From the IMG/VR virus record IMGVR_UViG_3300048110_000147, positions 1-64,000 of that record: a stretch of 64,000 bases of DNA. One strand, 5' to 3'. The DNA is from a virus. The notes under the pieces are model-generated. The model saw nothing but the letters and a program-made list of their open reading frames with translations. It had not been told where the DNA came from and did not search any database. Positions 22,620-29,431 of this stretch are shown here, piece by piece. Each line of letters begins with the position of its first letter. Within the stretch, counting starts at the first letter, position 1. A program made the position numbers and the translations under genes.

Positions 22620-22928
22620 ATGAAAGTTGCTGTTATCCACACCGCGTTTGAAGATTCGCCTCGAACTGTTGCCTTTGTTGCCGTCGGCAATCGTACTGGT
22701 GATGAAGCCCTTGAGTATGCATATCACCGCACCCAGAACCTTGGTGGTTCATGGAGTCGTGATGACATCGAAAATAACCCAGACTATTCAGAAGATGTGA
22801 CTGTGATGGCAGACCTTCCGGTTCACGAAGGTGTGACGTATGGTTTGCGGTCTACCTCGATGGGTGACCAGATGCTTCTTGGTAATGAGAAGTACAAAGT
22901 TGCAATGTGCGGTTTCGACCGCATCTAA
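22620..22928 (+). CDS. Hypothetical early protein on the plus strand, 102 aa
   Basis: The product starts MKVAVIHTAFEDSPRTVAFVA and looks alpha/beta, with an acidic middle. AAAGG lies upstream of the ATG. It is driven by a plus-strand copy of the same promoter/leader family (22561-22589), divergent from promoter 22468-22495. Its last 4 bases overlap the end of the convergent GIY-YIG-like gene. No family was recognised. Confidence 0.65.
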   Translation: MKVAVIHTAFEDSPRTVAFVAVGNRTGDEALEYAYHRTQNLGGSWSRDDIENNPDYSEDVTVMADLPVHEGVTYGLRSTSMGDQMLLGNEKYKVAMCGFDRI

Positions 22929-23341
22929 TCTTTGGGTAGATGCTTCGCGTGGATCTTGCATCCAATGAACGCGTTGTAGAAATCATCCCTGAGTAGAACG
23001 TCGTACTCGAACTGTAGTTTTGCTTCGTAGTACGAACACTCCCCTTTGGTGCGGCAGAGTTTCAGAATCTCTCTTTTGAAATTCTCTGCACCTTTCTCTT
23101 CAACTAGGGATTTTACTTCCTGACTTGAACCAAAATATTTCTTCCAGTCTGACACTACTCGCGTCTTAACTTTGCGCTTTCGTGTCTTGGTCACTGGCAG
23201 TGTTTTAGGCTTCCAAAAGAACTTCTTACCGATATACTTTTTACCAGTACTAAGTTCAGTGATGAGGTAGACGAACCCTTGATAGTCTTCTAAAAAGGAT
23301 TCTTCGGGATCGAACAATGTGTCTTCAAATAGCCATTCCAT
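22925..23341 (-). CDS. GIY-YIG-like endonuclease
   Basis: FVYLITELSTGKKYIGKKFF gives the GIY-YIG-type paired strands (VYL...KYIG), followed by a basic stretch, DWKKYFGSS and a later EAKLQFEYDVL with the metal-binding Glu region. This resembles Seg-type or stand-alone GIY-YIG nucleases of T4-like phages. It may be a homing endonuclease or a host-genome nuclease. No intron or insertion boundary is visible beside it. Confidence 0.7.
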   Translation of the reverse strand: MEWLFEDTLFDPEESFLEDYQGFVYLITELSTGKKYIGKKFFWKPKTLPVTKTRKRKVKTRVVSDWKKYFGSSQEVKSLVEEKGAENFKREILKLCRTKGECSYYEAKLQFEYDVLLRDDFYNAFIGCKIHAKHLPKD

Positions 23342-23345
23342 GCAC

Positions 23346-23903
23346 CTACTTATAGGTCATGTAAGTCCGTATGAAATATGGTTCACCTTGGGATACTGTC
23401 TTGGACCATTCTTGTGCTGCTTCATCATCCGCTTGGTCACTGACATATTTGTAACAATGAAATTCTACATCTGCATCCTGACAGACTTTTGCGATAGCAT
23501 ATGCTTCCATCTCTACTAGGTCAGCAGGAATCTCAAGATTTGGATCTGCAACAAAGTTGTCTCCCGTACTGCAAATCTTTCCGGTTTCCCACTCTATATC
23601 ATGAACGTGACCTAAGATGACTCCGTCCTCGAATGGTGTCTGGCCAGGACTGTATCCTAGACCCGCACATGACATATCGCGTTGCACGAACTTGTCTACT
23701 CTATGCAGACCACCGTCTATTGTGATACCTCCGGCAGTACCGAAGTTGAATACCCTCTCTGGTTTATGTCTCTCGATTAGTTTTGCAGCAGTCATCGCTG
23801 CATTTACTTTACCGACTCCAGTGAAGAATACATTGTTCCACTTAGACATCCTAGGTGCTTCTAGTTCTAGGGCGATGAGAATAAGGTCCTTAATTTCAGT
23901 CAT
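23346..23903 (-). CDS. MTA/SAH nucleosidase-like (PNP_UDP family) enzyme
   Basis: The 185-residue protein has LIALELEAP, FNFGTAGGI (phosphate/ribose loop) and VEMEAYAIAKVC followed by YVSDQADDEA. This is the conserved E-M-E and S-D-x-A(D) ending of 5'-methylthioadenosine/S-adenosylhomocysteine nucleosidases, which release adenine. It is somewhat shorter than E. coli Mtn. The adenine phosphoribosyltransferase gene overlaps it directly, so the pair can release and re-use adenine. Confidence 0.75.
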   Translation of the reverse strand: MTEIKDLILIALELEAPRMSKWNNVFFTGVGKVNAAMTAAKLIERHKPERVFNFGTAGGITIDGGLHRVDKFVQRDMSCAGLGYSPGQTPFEDGVILGHVHDIEWETGKICSTGDNFVADPNLEIPADLVEMEAYAIAKVCQDADVEFHCYKYVSDQADDEAAQEWSKTVSQGEPYFIRTYMTYK

Positions 23904-24411
23904 AGGTTACTACACTAAAAGTGTCCATATCTAATTTTGATGACCCACCAAGAAAGGCAAGGTCGATAACAGACGCATAACACATGTTTTCAACACCAAA
24001 GGTTTTCAACAACTCAGAGACTGCAAGTGCTGTACCTCCGGTCGCATTGACATCATCGATGATACATACGTTACTATTAGAGTTGAGTTTTGCGTCAGCT
24101 TTAATTTGTAACACCCCGCTAGCGTACTCGTAGTCGTACGACTTAGACTTTCGTGGGGGTGGTAGTTTGTTTGGTTTGCGTATCATATGGAGCGGTACCC
24201 CCAGTAGAAACGCTATAGGAGAACTCCAAAGGAATCCCCTGGCGTCCGGTGACACTATATCGGTGATACCTCGTGTAGTACAGAATTTCATCAGACTTTC
24301 TATACTATATTCAAACGCACGAGGGTTCACCAATATACCGCTTATATCTTTATACTGAACACCCTTGATAGGATAGTCCGGTACATTTCTAATCACATCT
24401 TTAAGATCCAT
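23896..24411 (-). CDS. apt: Adenine phosphoribosyltransferase
   Basis: The 171-residue enzyme carries the PRPP-binding loop CIIDDVNATGGTA near residues 115-127, SPDARGFLWSSPIA (pyrophosphate-loop region of APRT) and the N-terminal PDYPIKGVQYKDI typical of Apt. It converts adenine and PRPP to AMP. Together with the nucleosidase gene that overlaps its end by 8 bases it can salvage adenine from methylthioadenosine or S-adenosylhomocysteine. Confidence 0.85.
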   Translation of the reverse strand: MDLKDVIRNVPDYPIKGVQYKDISGILVNPRAFEYSIESLMKFCTTRGITDIVSPDARGFLWSSPIAFLLGVPLHMIRKPNKLPPPRKSKSYDYEYASGVLQIKADAKLNSNSNVCIIDDVNATGGTALAVSELLKTFGVENMCYASVIDLAFLGGSSKLDMDTFSVVTYD

Positions 24412-24551: not shown

Positions 24552-25526
24552 CTATGCTACCTCTGCTTCCAACTCTTCCCATCCGTAGTCTTCACCTTCC
24601 ATACCGGCTACTGAATATTCGGTTACACGTTTCTCAAAGAAGTTGTCGTGTGATGCTCCATTCAGTACCCAATCCAACCACGGTAGAGGATTTGTTTTTT
24701 GTTTGAACAATGGCTTCAGACCTAACTGAAGTAGTCGACGGTCAGCAATGTGACGTATGTAGTCGCGTACTTCCTTCTTGGTTAGACCCTGTACATTGTT
24801 ACCTTTAAACGCAAGTTGAATGAACTTGTCTTCTAGTGCGACAGCATTCTCTGCCATCTGATATATCTTTGACTTGAGTTCATCATTGATGATACGTGGG
24901 TGTTCATCCGTAAACTCACGGAACAACTTTGCGTTACCCTGTACGTGGATAGTTTCATCACGGATGGACCATTCCACGATTGTCGCCATACCCTTCATCT
25001 TTCCAAAACGTTGGAAGTTTAGTAGCATGACAAACGATGCGAATACTGACATACCTTCGTTGAACACAGACTGTGCCAACGCAAGTGCAAGACCCATATG
25101 ACTAGAGACGTTACCGTCTTTCATGAAATTGATCTTGTCTGCCATCTCAGTATATTCTAAGAATGCATGGTACTCTTCATCTGGTAGACCTAGAGTATCA
25201 TTAAGAAGAGCATACGCACGTTGGTGTACCCCTTCACGGTTTGCGAACGAGGACAGCATGTTACGCACCTCGTTATTCTTGAACTTTGGTATTAATAGTT
25301 CGTGGTAGTTCTCACCTACCTGTACGTCTGACTGCGTGAACAATCGTAGTACATGTGTGATGAATACTTTCTCATCTTCAGACAGTTTGGTTTTCCAATC
25401 CTGTACGTCTTCGGACAATTCTGCTTCATCTTCGATCCAATGGATCTCTTCGTGTTTCTTTGTTAGTTCAACCGCCCAAGGATATAGGAACGGTTTATAT
25501 GTTTCTGAAAATTTAAGTAACGACAT
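24552..25526 (-). CDS. nrdB: Ribonucleotide reductase class Ia small subunit
   Basis: The 324-residue protein has REGVHQRAY, which supplies the metal-ligand Glu and His and, four residues after the His, the Tyr expected to form the radical (Glu-x-x-His-x-x-x-Tyr as in E. coli E115/H118/Y122). Further ligands lie in QSVFNEGM and WSIRDETIH. It delivers the radical to NrdA for deoxynucleotide synthesis. It follows nrdA by about 40 bases in one operon. Confidence 0.93.
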   Translation of the reverse strand: MSLLKFSETYKPFLYPWAVELTKKHEEIHWIEDEAELSEDVQDWKTKLSEDEKVFITHVLRLFTQSDVQVGENYHELLIPKFKNNEVRNMLSSFANREGVHQRAYALLNDTLGLPDEEYHAFLEYTEMADKINFMKDGNVSSHMGLALALAQSVFNEGMSVFASFVMLLNFQRFGKMKGMATIVEWSIRDETIHVQGNAKLFREFTDEHPRIINDELKSKIYQMAENAVALEDKFIQLAFKGNNVQGLTKKEVRDYIRHIADRRLLQLGLKPLFKQKTNPLPWLDWVLNGASHDNFFEKRVTEYSVAGMEGEDYGWEELEAEVA

Positions 25527-25566: not shown

Positions 25567-27561
25567 CTATCCTTCACAAGCTCGACATTCGTCTCCATCA
25601 TCTACAGACAGTGTGATGTCCGTTTTCAATTGGAGCATAAGATCTTCATAACCACCAATGTATCTTCCTTCTATGTAAATCTGAGGGACCGTCGTAACAT
25701 CTTTTCGACCAGTGACCTCTGAGGCCGTCTTCTTGATGACCTCAAGGTCTATGTAATCGAATGGTACTCCCTGTAAGAGTAACTCTTCTTTGGCTTTGGT
25801 ACACCAAGGACAGTTAGCCTTTCCATAGATTATCGTCCGGTTGTCATCCATTAATGCAACCCGTTCGACTTTGTCTGATACCGTCTCCGCACGAGAACTT
25901 GCCTCTGTGCGCAAATAGTATAGACCTTTCAACCCTTTTCTCCACGCGTTAAAATGCACCTTATTGACGTATCGCTTAGGGGCACCGGAAGGGAAAAAGA
26001 GATTGACTGACTGACCCTGACAAATAAATGGTTGTCGGTCTGCCGCGTGTGTCACCACCCAATTCTGGTCTAGTTCTTGTGCGGTCTTGTAGATTGCCTT
26101 CTCACCTTCGTTAAGGAAAGGTAGGTGTTGCACCGACCCTTTCTTGGTGATAATGCTGGACCACGTAGATTCGTTATCATGACCCTTCTCTTTGAGGAGT
26201 TGGGTCAGATAAACATTCTTCACTAGGAAAGAACCAGCACGAGTTCTATGCGTATAAGCACATGCCTTCAGTGGTTCAATCGATGGTGACGTTGATAAAA
26301 TGACTCCCGACGACGCGTTTGGTGCTATTGCTATTAGATGCGCATTACGCATTCCTGAACCTAAACCGTCTGAGTATTCACCTCGCTCTTTCGCAAGGAG
26401 CCGTGACTCTTCTGTTGCTTGTTTGTTGATATTCTGAAAGACAACCTTATTTATCTCTCGTGCTTTATCAGACTCCCAAGCGACAGAGTGTTTCTGTAAG
26501 AGTGAATGGAATCCCATTGCACCCAATCCAATCGAGCGTTCACGAGCAGCAGAGTATCTTGCACGTGAAATGCTGTCTGGTGCGTTCTCGATAAAGTACT
26601 CAAGAACATTATCCAACATGCGAATAAGGTCTCGCACGATGTTGGTATCTTTCCACTCATCATAGTATTCTAGATTGAGTGATGAGAGACAACATACCGC
26701 AGTCCTGTCTGGACCTGTCGGCAAGTGAATCTCGTTACATAAGTTTGACCCGTGAATCTTGAGACCCTTTTCCTTCAGTGGCATCGGGAGTGCACGATTC
26801 GCAGTGTCAATGAAATTCAAGTACGGTTCACCCGTACGGAAACGTACCTCAAGGATTCGTTCCCACAACTTACGTGCATTGATGGATTCTTTTACTATGC
26901 CATCTTTCGGATCACGCAAGTCAAAATTTGTGTTGTTTAAGACCGCAGCCATAAACTCATCTGTGATATTTATAGCATTGTGAATGTTCAGAGCTTTCCG
27001 TTGAACGTCACCTGTCGGTATACGGATATTTAGGAATTCTACAATGTCTGGATGATGCACATCTAAGTATGCCGCATAAGACCCCTTACGTGTCTTACCC
27101 TGACGATACGCAATCATGTCCGCATCTACAGTGTGCATGAATGGAATGGGTCCAGGCGCGATGTCAGAGACCGTACGCACGTCTCCCCAGTGTCCACCGA
27201 CACCACCACCCATCACAGATAACCATCTTAGTTCGGATGAATGCTCAATGAGTCCTTCTAGAGTATCTGGTACATAGGTAAGAAAACATGAGATGGGTAG
27301 TCCCTTCGATTTACCTTCATCGGAAGGAGCATTAGACAGTACAGGAGAAGCAAACATAAACCACTTCTTAGAAACATAATCATAAAGTCGTCGTGCAAGT
27401 ACTTCGTCTAGTTGCCCTTTGTACATTGACCATGCGGTTGATGCTCTCGCATATGCATCTTGTGGTGAGTCTTCACCATCGGTCATGTAAAAATCTTTTA
27501 ACATTCCTACTGCATAGTCAGTAAGCAGTTCGTCTCTATCATAATCTACATCAACTGTCAT
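25567..27561 (-). CDS. nrdA: Ribonucleotide reductase large subunit with inserted glutaredoxin domain
   Basis: The catalytic barrel carries PISCFLTYV (first redox Cys), GSNLCNEIHLP (N-x-C-x-E active site), AVCCLSSLN (second redox Cys) and GLYYLRTEAS (radical-transfer Tyr pair). The N terminus starts at the helical domain, so the ATP-cone is missing. After residue about 575 there is a complete glutaredoxin domain (CPWC at 584-587, TTVPQIYIEGRYIGGYEDL), and then the usual acidic C-terminal tail ending in C659-x-x-C662. The reductant domain is thus placed between barrel and swinging tail, which may make turnover self-sufficient. Confidence 0.93.
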   Translation of the reverse strand: MTVDVDYDRDELLTDYAVGMLKDFYMTDGEDSPQDAYARASTAWSMYKGQLDEVLARRLYDYVSKKWFMFASPVLSNAPSDEGKSKGLPISCFLTYVPDTLEGLIEHSSELRWLSVMGGGVGGHWGDVRTVSDIAPGPIPFMHTVDADMIAYRQGKTRKGSYAAYLDVHHPDIVEFLNIRIPTGDVQRKALNIHNAINITDEFMAAVLNNTNFDLRDPKDGIVKESINARKLWERILEVRFRTGEPYLNFIDTANRALPMPLKEKGLKIHGSNLCNEIHLPTGPDRTAVCCLSSLNLEYYDEWKDTNIVRDLIRMLDNVLEYFIENAPDSISRARYSAARERSIGLGAMGFHSLLQKHSVAWESDKAREINKVVFQNINKQATEESRLLAKERGEYSDGLGSGMRNAHLIAIAPNASSGVILSTSPSIEPLKACAYTHRTRAGSFLVKNVYLTQLLKEKGHDNESTWSSIITKKGSVQHLPFLNEGEKAIYKTAQELDQNWVVTHAADRQPFICQGQSVNLFFPSGAPKRYVNKVHFNAWRKGLKGLYYLRTEASSRAETVSDKVERVALMDDNRTIIYGKANCPWCTKAKEELLLQGVPFDYIDLEVIKKTASEVTGRKDVTTVPQIYIEGRYIGGYEDLMLQLKTDITLSVDDGDECRACEG

Positions 27562-28485: not shown

Positions 28486-29075
28486 TTTCGTATCTCGTTT
28501 GATGAGAATAATATGCGTTTACCTGTGCGTAGGTGAGTACCCTCGAATACAGGTATACCTAGAATATCGTGACATAAATTGTCTTCGGTGACCCGTACTT
28601 GATCCCCTTTACGTACCATATCTTCTCCACCCGATAGTACAGAGTTTTCTGCCATACGGTACATACCTTGACCTAAGTTACCATTGTCCAGTACATACCA
28701 CTGAGAGTTTTCAAGTAGCACATCCATGATATCGACACCAGTCTCTTCATGAATCTTTTGAATCTGTTTATCAGACAGATCACCGTCTTCTTTGATTAGT
28801 GCAAGTGCAGCACCATACCGTGCGACAATAGAGGAACCGCCTGGGACCTTAGCCATAAGTTTCTTTAGATTAAACACGAGACGATGGAACGAGGTGTAGT
28901 GAGTACGGTATGCATCGCGCTTATCCATATCCCCCATGTCATAATCTTTGACTTTATTTCCGTCTGCATCGATGATCCCTGCCTTGAATGCACCAGTATC
29001 TTCTATCTTGGTGACCAGCAGTTTCAGAAAACGAATTGTATAGACTACATCTGCAGCCGACTTTAGGATGCCCAT
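28482..29075 (-). CDS. Conserved T4-like marine phage protein, probable virion component, 197 aa
   Basis: The start MGILKSAADVVYTIRFLKLLVT, the FHRLVFNLKKLMAKVPGGS segment and the terminal VTEDNLCHDILGIPVFEGTH recur, from memory, in a protein family of T4-like cyanophages. Its precise function is not established; late position suggests virion or assembly. The ATG overlaps the 29063 gene by 13 bases. Confidence 0.65.
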   Translation of the reverse strand: MGILKSAADVVYTIRFLKLLVTKIEDTGAFKAGIIDADGNKVKDYDMGDMDKRDAYRTHYTSFHRLVFNLKKLMAKVPGGSSIVARYGAALALIKEDGDLSDKQIQKIHEETGVDIMDVLLENSQWYVLDNGNLGQGMYRMAENSVLSGGEDMVRKGDQVRVTEDNLCHDILGIPVFEGTHLRTGKRILFSSNEIRK

Positions 29076-29431
29076 CTTATTTCTCTCAATTTATCTATTA
29101 CGTATTTATCCATTTCGATACCTGTAATGTCATCATTTCTTATTGCTTGGAGAAAAACAAGGAAGGGTTTGATAGTCGGCCACTGTTCTAACGGTATTTT
29201 TACTGCCAACATCTCCACACCTGCTTCATTTCCAAACACATTAAAGATGACGATCAAATGGTTTAGGATAAGTCTTTCTGCAAGGTCTCCGTTCTGGTGG
29301 TATCGATTCACCAATCTCTTCACATACTTGAACCTCTTCAGATCGTCGAAGAATTCTTCTCCGTCGATGTGGGTGGGATTATAGTAGTGCTTTGCAGCAT
29401 AGACGACAAGATTATTTTTATTCAACTTCAT
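29063..29431 (-). CDS. Conserved helical phage protein, 122 aa
   Basis: All-helical composition with LVVYAAKHYYNPTHIDGEEFFDD at the start and a basic middle. A small protein of this type recurs in marine T4-like phages next to the preceding gene. Function unknown. It overlaps the glycosyltransferase-like gene by 14 bases. Confidence 0.65.
   Translation of the reverse strand: MKLNKNNLVVYAAKHYYNPTHIDGEEFFDDLKRFKYVKRLVNRYHQNGDLAERLILNHLIVIFNVFGNEAGVEMLAVKIPLEQWPTIKPFLVFLQAIRNDDITGIEMDKYVIDKLREIRWAS

Follow-up and report, generated by a model that had tools for sequence, protein, structure and literature searches.

In all class I ribonucleotide reductases (RNRs) a cysteine pair at the C-terminus of the catalytic subunit NrdA re-reduces the active site, and this pair is reduced in turn by thioredoxin, glutaredoxin (Grx) or NrdH (PMC6187632). 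Covalent attachment of a Grx to a class I RNR is already known. The Grx::NrdB proteins of Facklamia ignava, Francisella and phages carry a GrxC-like dithiol Grx at the N-terminus of the radical-generating subunit, from where it has to act on the other polypeptide, and the F. ignava Grx (CPWC) was shown to reduce its RNR efficiently with glutathione (GSH) through a dithiol mechanism and, with lower efficiency, a monothiol one (PMC6187632). The same 2018 survey (Rozman Grinberg et al., PMC6187632) mentions "grx::nrdA in two viruses", its main text giving no position, spread, origin or function for these; our guess is that the two were, plausibly, Delftia phage PhiW-14 and cyanophage S-TIM5. The class II enzyme NrdJ also possesses an extra C-terminal domain with electron-delivering cysteines, for which electron transfer between subunits was shown, but that domain binds zinc and is unrelated to Grx, and neither Grx nor thioredoxin worked with it (Loderer et al. 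2017, PMC5704485). In a full-text search of the openly readable literature no paper was found on an internal placement of Grx in NrdA, on its spread among marine phages or on its repeated origin, and these aspects appear to be new.

The window (the whole stretch of 64,000 nucleotides that was analysed, positions 1 to 64,000 of the IMG/VR virus record IMGVR_UViG_3300048110_000147) codes for an NrdA in which a Grx with the same CPWC motif as in F. ignava is built into the catalytic subunit itself, with the barrel before it and the C-terminal tail behind it. The domain order put forward in the original prediction, i.e. barrel, Grx and CxxC tail, could be confirmed in one 664-residue frame with significant NrdA and Grx domains. 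The features are the following, in window coordinates:

25567..27561, minus strand: nrdA ORF, large subunit of class I ribonucleotide reductase with internal glutaredoxin; 664 amino acids, ATG start, no internal stop
27322..27525, minus strand: all-alpha N-terminal domain, residues 13-80 (Pfam PF00317, Ribonuc_red_lgN)
25897..27291, minus strand: ten-stranded barrel, residues about 91-555 (Pfam Ribonuc_red_lgC, best stretch 91-397 and a second stretch)
25840..25914, minus strand: linker 1, residues 550-574, LRTEASSRAETVSDKVERVALMDDNR; conserved in Grx-less relatives too, low model confidence at 554-572
25624..25839, minus strand: glutaredoxin domain, residues about 575-646 (Pfam PF00462 at 577-635; AlphaFold2 block with pLDDT of about 72-91)
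25801..25812, minus strand: Grx redox motif C584-P-W-C587; both cysteines in 131 of 131 loci with the layout
25570..25623, minus strand: acidic flexible tail, residues 647-664, ending DECRACEG; pLDDT < 50 over 648-664
25576..25587, minus strand: tail redox pair C659-R-A-C662; CxxC in 131 of 131 loci
24552..25526, minus strand: nrdB ORF, radical-generating subunit, 324 amino acids (PF00268, E=1.3e-72), starting 40 bp after nrdA; plain, without a Grx domain

The NrdA matched the NCBIfam model NF006577/PRK09102 (ribonucleoside-diphosphate reductase subunit alpha) with 765 bits, the cut-off being 620. We take PRK09102 to correspond to the RNRdb subclass NrdAk, which would make the window NrdA NrdAk-like. 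On the basis of motifs and alignment, C92 and C290 were assigned as the putative active-site disulfide pair, N273-x-C275-x-E277 as the probable radical cysteine loop and Y548-Y549 as the probable radical path; C92, N273, C275, E277, C290, Y548 and Y549 are invariant in a 50-row alignment of relatives. The AlphaFold2 model of the whole protein (50 relatives in the alignment) had a mean pLDDT of 86 and its best structural matches were the class Id alpha subunits 6dqw and 6dqx of the PDB. The window enzyme thus resembles NrdAk-type (PRK09102) and class Id NrdA (6dqw, 6dqx) in its barrel, catalytic residues, terminal CxxC and lack of an ATP-cone, but in those proteins there is no Grx insert and the linker runs straight into the tail. 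The missing ATP-cone had been pointed out before, as a hint that dATP shut-off through it is lacking. Its absence was verified, since no Pfam match to PF03477 was found in the window NrdA or anywhere in the 96.9-kb virus record, and it is a fair assumption that dATP shut-off through that domain does not occur here. However, the NrdAi and NrdAk clades are generally devoid of the cone (PMC6370689), therefore its lack is inherited and is no special trait of the window enzyme.

Several further genes were observed around the RNR genes. Downstream of nrdB (window 23346-24411, minus strand) a phosphoribosyltransferase (PF00156) and a purine-nucleoside-phosphorylase/nucleosidase-like ORF (PF01048) overlap by 8 bp; their homologues in phage C48C1 are 57% and 69% identical, respectively, and the two may be a pair for base salvage next to the RNR genes. 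A SegE-type GIY-YIG endonuclease (PF19835, E=5.6e-37) is located nearby at 22925-23341 (minus strand), and a DUF7207 protein (E=9e-40) at 29063-29431 (minus strand) belongs to a conserved cluster upstream of nrdA that is common to C48C1.

The insert itself was recognized by PF00462 with E=4.1e-12 and 46.6 bits, about twice the gathering cut-off of 22.9, and its scores lay under the curated cut-offs of the narrower NCBIfam Grx models. The Grx motifs named in the original prediction are all present: CPWC at 584-587, TVPQIY with the cis-Pro TVP, and GGYED, the GG motif for GSH; the stretch TVPQIYIEGRYIGGYEDL starts at residue 624. The top redoxin models were those of the Grx3, GrxA and GlrX families, and NrdH was absent among the best 25 of the 36 matches. 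In the AlphaFold2 model the insert is predicted to adopt a beta-alpha-beta-alpha-beta-beta-alpha topology as a domain of its own between two segments with pLDDT below 50 (554-572 and 648-664), both of which are presumably flexible. The same plan was predicted, at lower confidence than for the window protein, for an S-TIM5-like protein (L091), with low-confidence segments at 540-557 and 625-636 and Grx-like strands and helices from residue 559.

The Grx had been proposed to begin right after YYLRTEAS. The order is correct, but a conserved NrdA linker at about 557-572 (SSRAETVSDKVERVAL; YYLRTEAS is followed by some 17 residues of linker) precedes the Grx. Since Grx-less relatives have this stretch too, as in the plain NrdA of Melnitz (YYLRTETSQRAENVSQKVARDALKDF...EECVACQG), it has to be regarded as part of NrdA and not of the Grx. 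The median spacing from the YY pair to the CPxC of the Grx is 36 residues, and in the Grx-less relatives the tail CxxC follows YY at the same median distance; thus the Grx fills the former place of the tail pair, and the tail is carried beyond it.

The search for this domain order in phage NrdA proteins, which had been suggested along with the prediction, yielded at least 131 loci with 94 distinct sequences, collected by an IMG/VR scan with the window protein, in which all of the best 80 loci had the barrel-Grx-tail order, and by further scans. The CPxC, the cis-Pro motif and the terminal CxxC are present in 131 of 131 loci, so the tail is indeed kept beyond the insert, as had been claimed; in none of the 131 does the linker ahead of the Grx contain a cysteine. 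A Lys at -3 was found in 127 of the 131, T/S-V/L-P in all of them, and GG occurs as such or in a close variant, which features suggest a GSH-type dithiol glutaredoxin. Rough Nei-Gojobori estimates from 51 non-independent pairs put dN/dS at 0.094 in the Grx, as compared with 0.067 in the barrel and 0.063 in the linker, while the tail reached 0.23. The value for the Grx indicates purifying selection, and the tail is the most variable segment, its cysteines excepted.

Among the isolates the barrel-Grx-CxxC layout was found in phage C48C1 (Kyanoviridae; NrdA 86.8% identical to that of the window), Delftia phage PhiW-14, the Acinetobacter phages nACB2 and SH-Ab 15599 and the cyanophages S-TIM5, S-TIM54, S-TIM61, S-TIM66 and S-CBWM1. 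Since at least 131 loci (94 distinct sequences), complete phage genomes among them, keep both cysteine pairs, the layout is far beyond chance. In the phage collection, where duplicates between GenBank and RefSeq were counted, the C-terminal query aligned over at least 80% in only 12 records, as compared with 4,034 records having an NrdA match; an IMG/VR scan with the PhiW-14 NrdA returned no match besides PhiW-14 itself. Fusions at an end of the protein had been thought to be more usual. This applies to NrdB, where the Grx is N-terminal, but the NrdA fusions found in this analysis are all internal. A cellular bearer was also considered. Among the best 80 GTDB-based loci only L237 (JAAXIF010000028.1) has the layout, a 142-kb contig filed as a Sphingobacteriales MAG, whose nrd region is collinear with C48C1 and whose NrdB is 88% identical; since its flanks are collinear with this phage, the contig is phage and a cellular bearer was rejected in its case, while rarer cellular cases may exist. 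As a separate observation, the NrdA of the Acinetobacter phages SH-Ab 15599 and nACB2 (L084, L086, L088) contains an intein-like stretch in the radical-cysteine loop (SNLC...NCTEI), and S-CBWM1 has an annotated intein at the same place.

In the barrel tree the sister group comprises Melnitz, Francisella and many marine contigs, and there the Grx is fused to the N-terminus of NrdB while NrdA is plain. When NrdB was typed by tblastn, 131 loci combined Grx-NrdA with plain NrdB, 100 had plain NrdA with Grx-NrdB, 49 had Grx on neither and in 16 NrdB was not found; no locus among those typed had Grx on both. The mutual exclusion of the two attachments is suggestive and falls short of being statistically established, since near-copies inflate the counts and the independent evolutionary events are few. 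Apart from the NrdA insert, no Grx above the family cut-off was found in the window record or in seven complete phage genomes with the layout (C48C1, PhiW-14, nACB2, SH-Ab 15599, S-TIM5, S-TIM54 and S-CBWM1), and the sole above-cut-off Grx of the Melnitz genome sits on NrdB. No thioredoxin match was obtained in the window record or in 10 of the 12 records tested; thioredoxin is present in the other two, S-TIM5 and S-TIM54. Two annotations in these genomes are misleading: NrdB of PhiW-14 (gene 26, L085) is labelled bifunctional glutaredoxin/RNR beta, yet the Grx of this phage is in NrdA, and the Melnitz NrdA (L083) is labelled vitamin B12-dependent, with the Grx-NrdB gene just downstream and one short ORF between.

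Taken together, we consider it probable (about 0.8) that the window NrdA is a functional class I enzyme from a T4-like marine phage, a relative of the Kyanoviridae phage C48C1, in which a dedicated dithiol Grx, tethered to the barrel on one side and to the redox tail on the other, runs the route from GSH through Grx and tail to the active site. From the domain order, conservation, selection and predicted fold we infer the following redox steps. Each turnover would form the C92-C290 disulfide, which the swinging tail would reduce through C659-C662; the oxidised tail would be reduced by C584-C587 of the Grx, either within its own chain or across the alpha2 dimer; host glutathione would then reduce the oxidised Grx, and host glutathione reductase would regenerate the glutathione with NADPH. 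In the simplest reading the chemistry of the window enzyme would be that of F. ignava, with the Grx relocated from NrdB to NrdA, and the earlier suggestion of a glutathione-driven reduction is plausible by analogy with the CPWC Grx fused to NrdB, for which such a reduction was shown biochemically (PMC6187632). The tether would raise the local concentration of the reductant. It was also suggested that the phage is thereby freed from host thioredoxin, which seems to hold in part and was overstated: reliance on diffusing host thioredoxin or glutaredoxin would end, but the freedom would be only partial, because host glutathione and glutathione reductase would remain necessary. The necessity of the tail to stay terminal in order to enter the active site would explain why the insertions land just before the tail and not after it.

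Other roles of the insert have to be weighed against this mechanism. The equal spacing of 36 residues would also be expected if the Grx had replaced the tail, its CPxC entering the active site and reducing C92-C290 directly, the terminal CxxC being a relic. This is very improbable, since that CxxC persists in all 131 loci although the tail around it varies most, and, as RNR structures generally show a narrow active-site cleft, a folded domain of some 70 residues such as the Grx would hardly fit into it. Alternatively, the Grx might serve elsewhere, in deglutathionylation of NrdA or of other phage or host proteins, in iron-sulfur handling, or as a spacer tuning NrdB assembly, with host redoxins driving turnover. 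Such roles are textbook knowledge for glutaredoxins in general, and as often the phage's only Grx it might therefore have other clients too. However, the domain invariably neighbours the tail of the RNR or, in the sister group, is attached to NrdB, and both dithiol cysteines are conserved, which a pure spacer would not retain, so that this explanation, slightly less remote than the former, also seems improbable. As regards an artefact, i.e. a frameshift, a chimeric assembly or two separately translated proteins, start-like internal codons with SD-like sequences do occur in some loci (e.g. TTG at -34 in 19 of 88) without being conserved, and the single frame is intact in 131 loci from independent assemblies and complete isolate genomes. 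The frameshift and two-protein readings were rejected on these grounds, as the original prediction of one protein would have it, and the probability of any such artefact is negligible.

The dedicated reductant in the NrdA chain might have been acquired once, in an NrdA ancestor from which the plain forms derived by many losses, or repeatedly. The layout requires at least four changes of state on the 48-barrel tree. A single clade of all carriers was rejected for the barrels (AU p=7.7e-5), also without the S-TIM5 lineage (p=0.0014), and was not rejected without S-TIM5 and contig L357 (p=0.119), all p-values here being guides, since the groups were named after the alignments had been seen and the Grx tree has few columns. 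On the Grx tree one clade of all NrdA-borne Grx was disfavoured (p=0.022), the Grx of S-TIM5/S-CBWM1, which occupies the same slot in a more distantly related NrdA, being of a different lineage, while a grouping that left out the S-TIM5 type alone was disfavoured only marginally (p=0.062). A single ancient fusion would fit this last value, the p=0.119 of the barrels and the TAAEVTG signature common to the Grx of the window clade, L349/L352, PhiW-14 and the Acinetobacter phages. On the other hand, the rejected barrel clades, the separate Grx of S-TIM5/S-CBWM1 and the plain NrdA of the S-TIM5 relatives Mx1, immuto, RcXuper, Atu_ph04 and Ceto, the nearest plain ones to the S-TIM5/S-CBWM1 type, speak against it, and we regard one ancient fusion as unlikely. 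The derivation of the insert from the neighbouring NrdB-fused Grx was considered as well and found unsupported: the NrdB-borne Grx form a separate group, and joining them with the NrdA-borne type gave p=0.029, or p=0.051 with its main group. Judged from these trees, at least two captures are likely to have occurred, one of the window type with the TAAEVTG-type Grx and one of the S-TIM5/S-CBWM1 type; L357 may have received the module by transfer, or may stand for a third capture.

The broader reading, towards which we lean with some reserve, is that unrelated Grx domains were captured at least twice by phage NrdA into one fixed slot between barrel and tail, making the route from GSH through Grx and tail to the active site self-contained in one subunit. 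On the same joint reading the single Grx of phage RNRs would be on NrdA (internal) or on NrdB (N-terminal) but not on both, so that the attachment itself would be under selection and its place interchangeable.

The alternation of the RNR tail between the active site and an external reductant depends on an encounter of two proteins, which makes it difficult to investigate. In NrdA of the window type a single chain holds both redox partners in a fixed order, and a natural comparison set is provided by relatives that have the Grx on NrdB or lack it. One slot of an enzyme has probably been filled by different redoxins, and the layout would serve as a marker for marine phages running their DNA-precursor synthesis on host glutathione.
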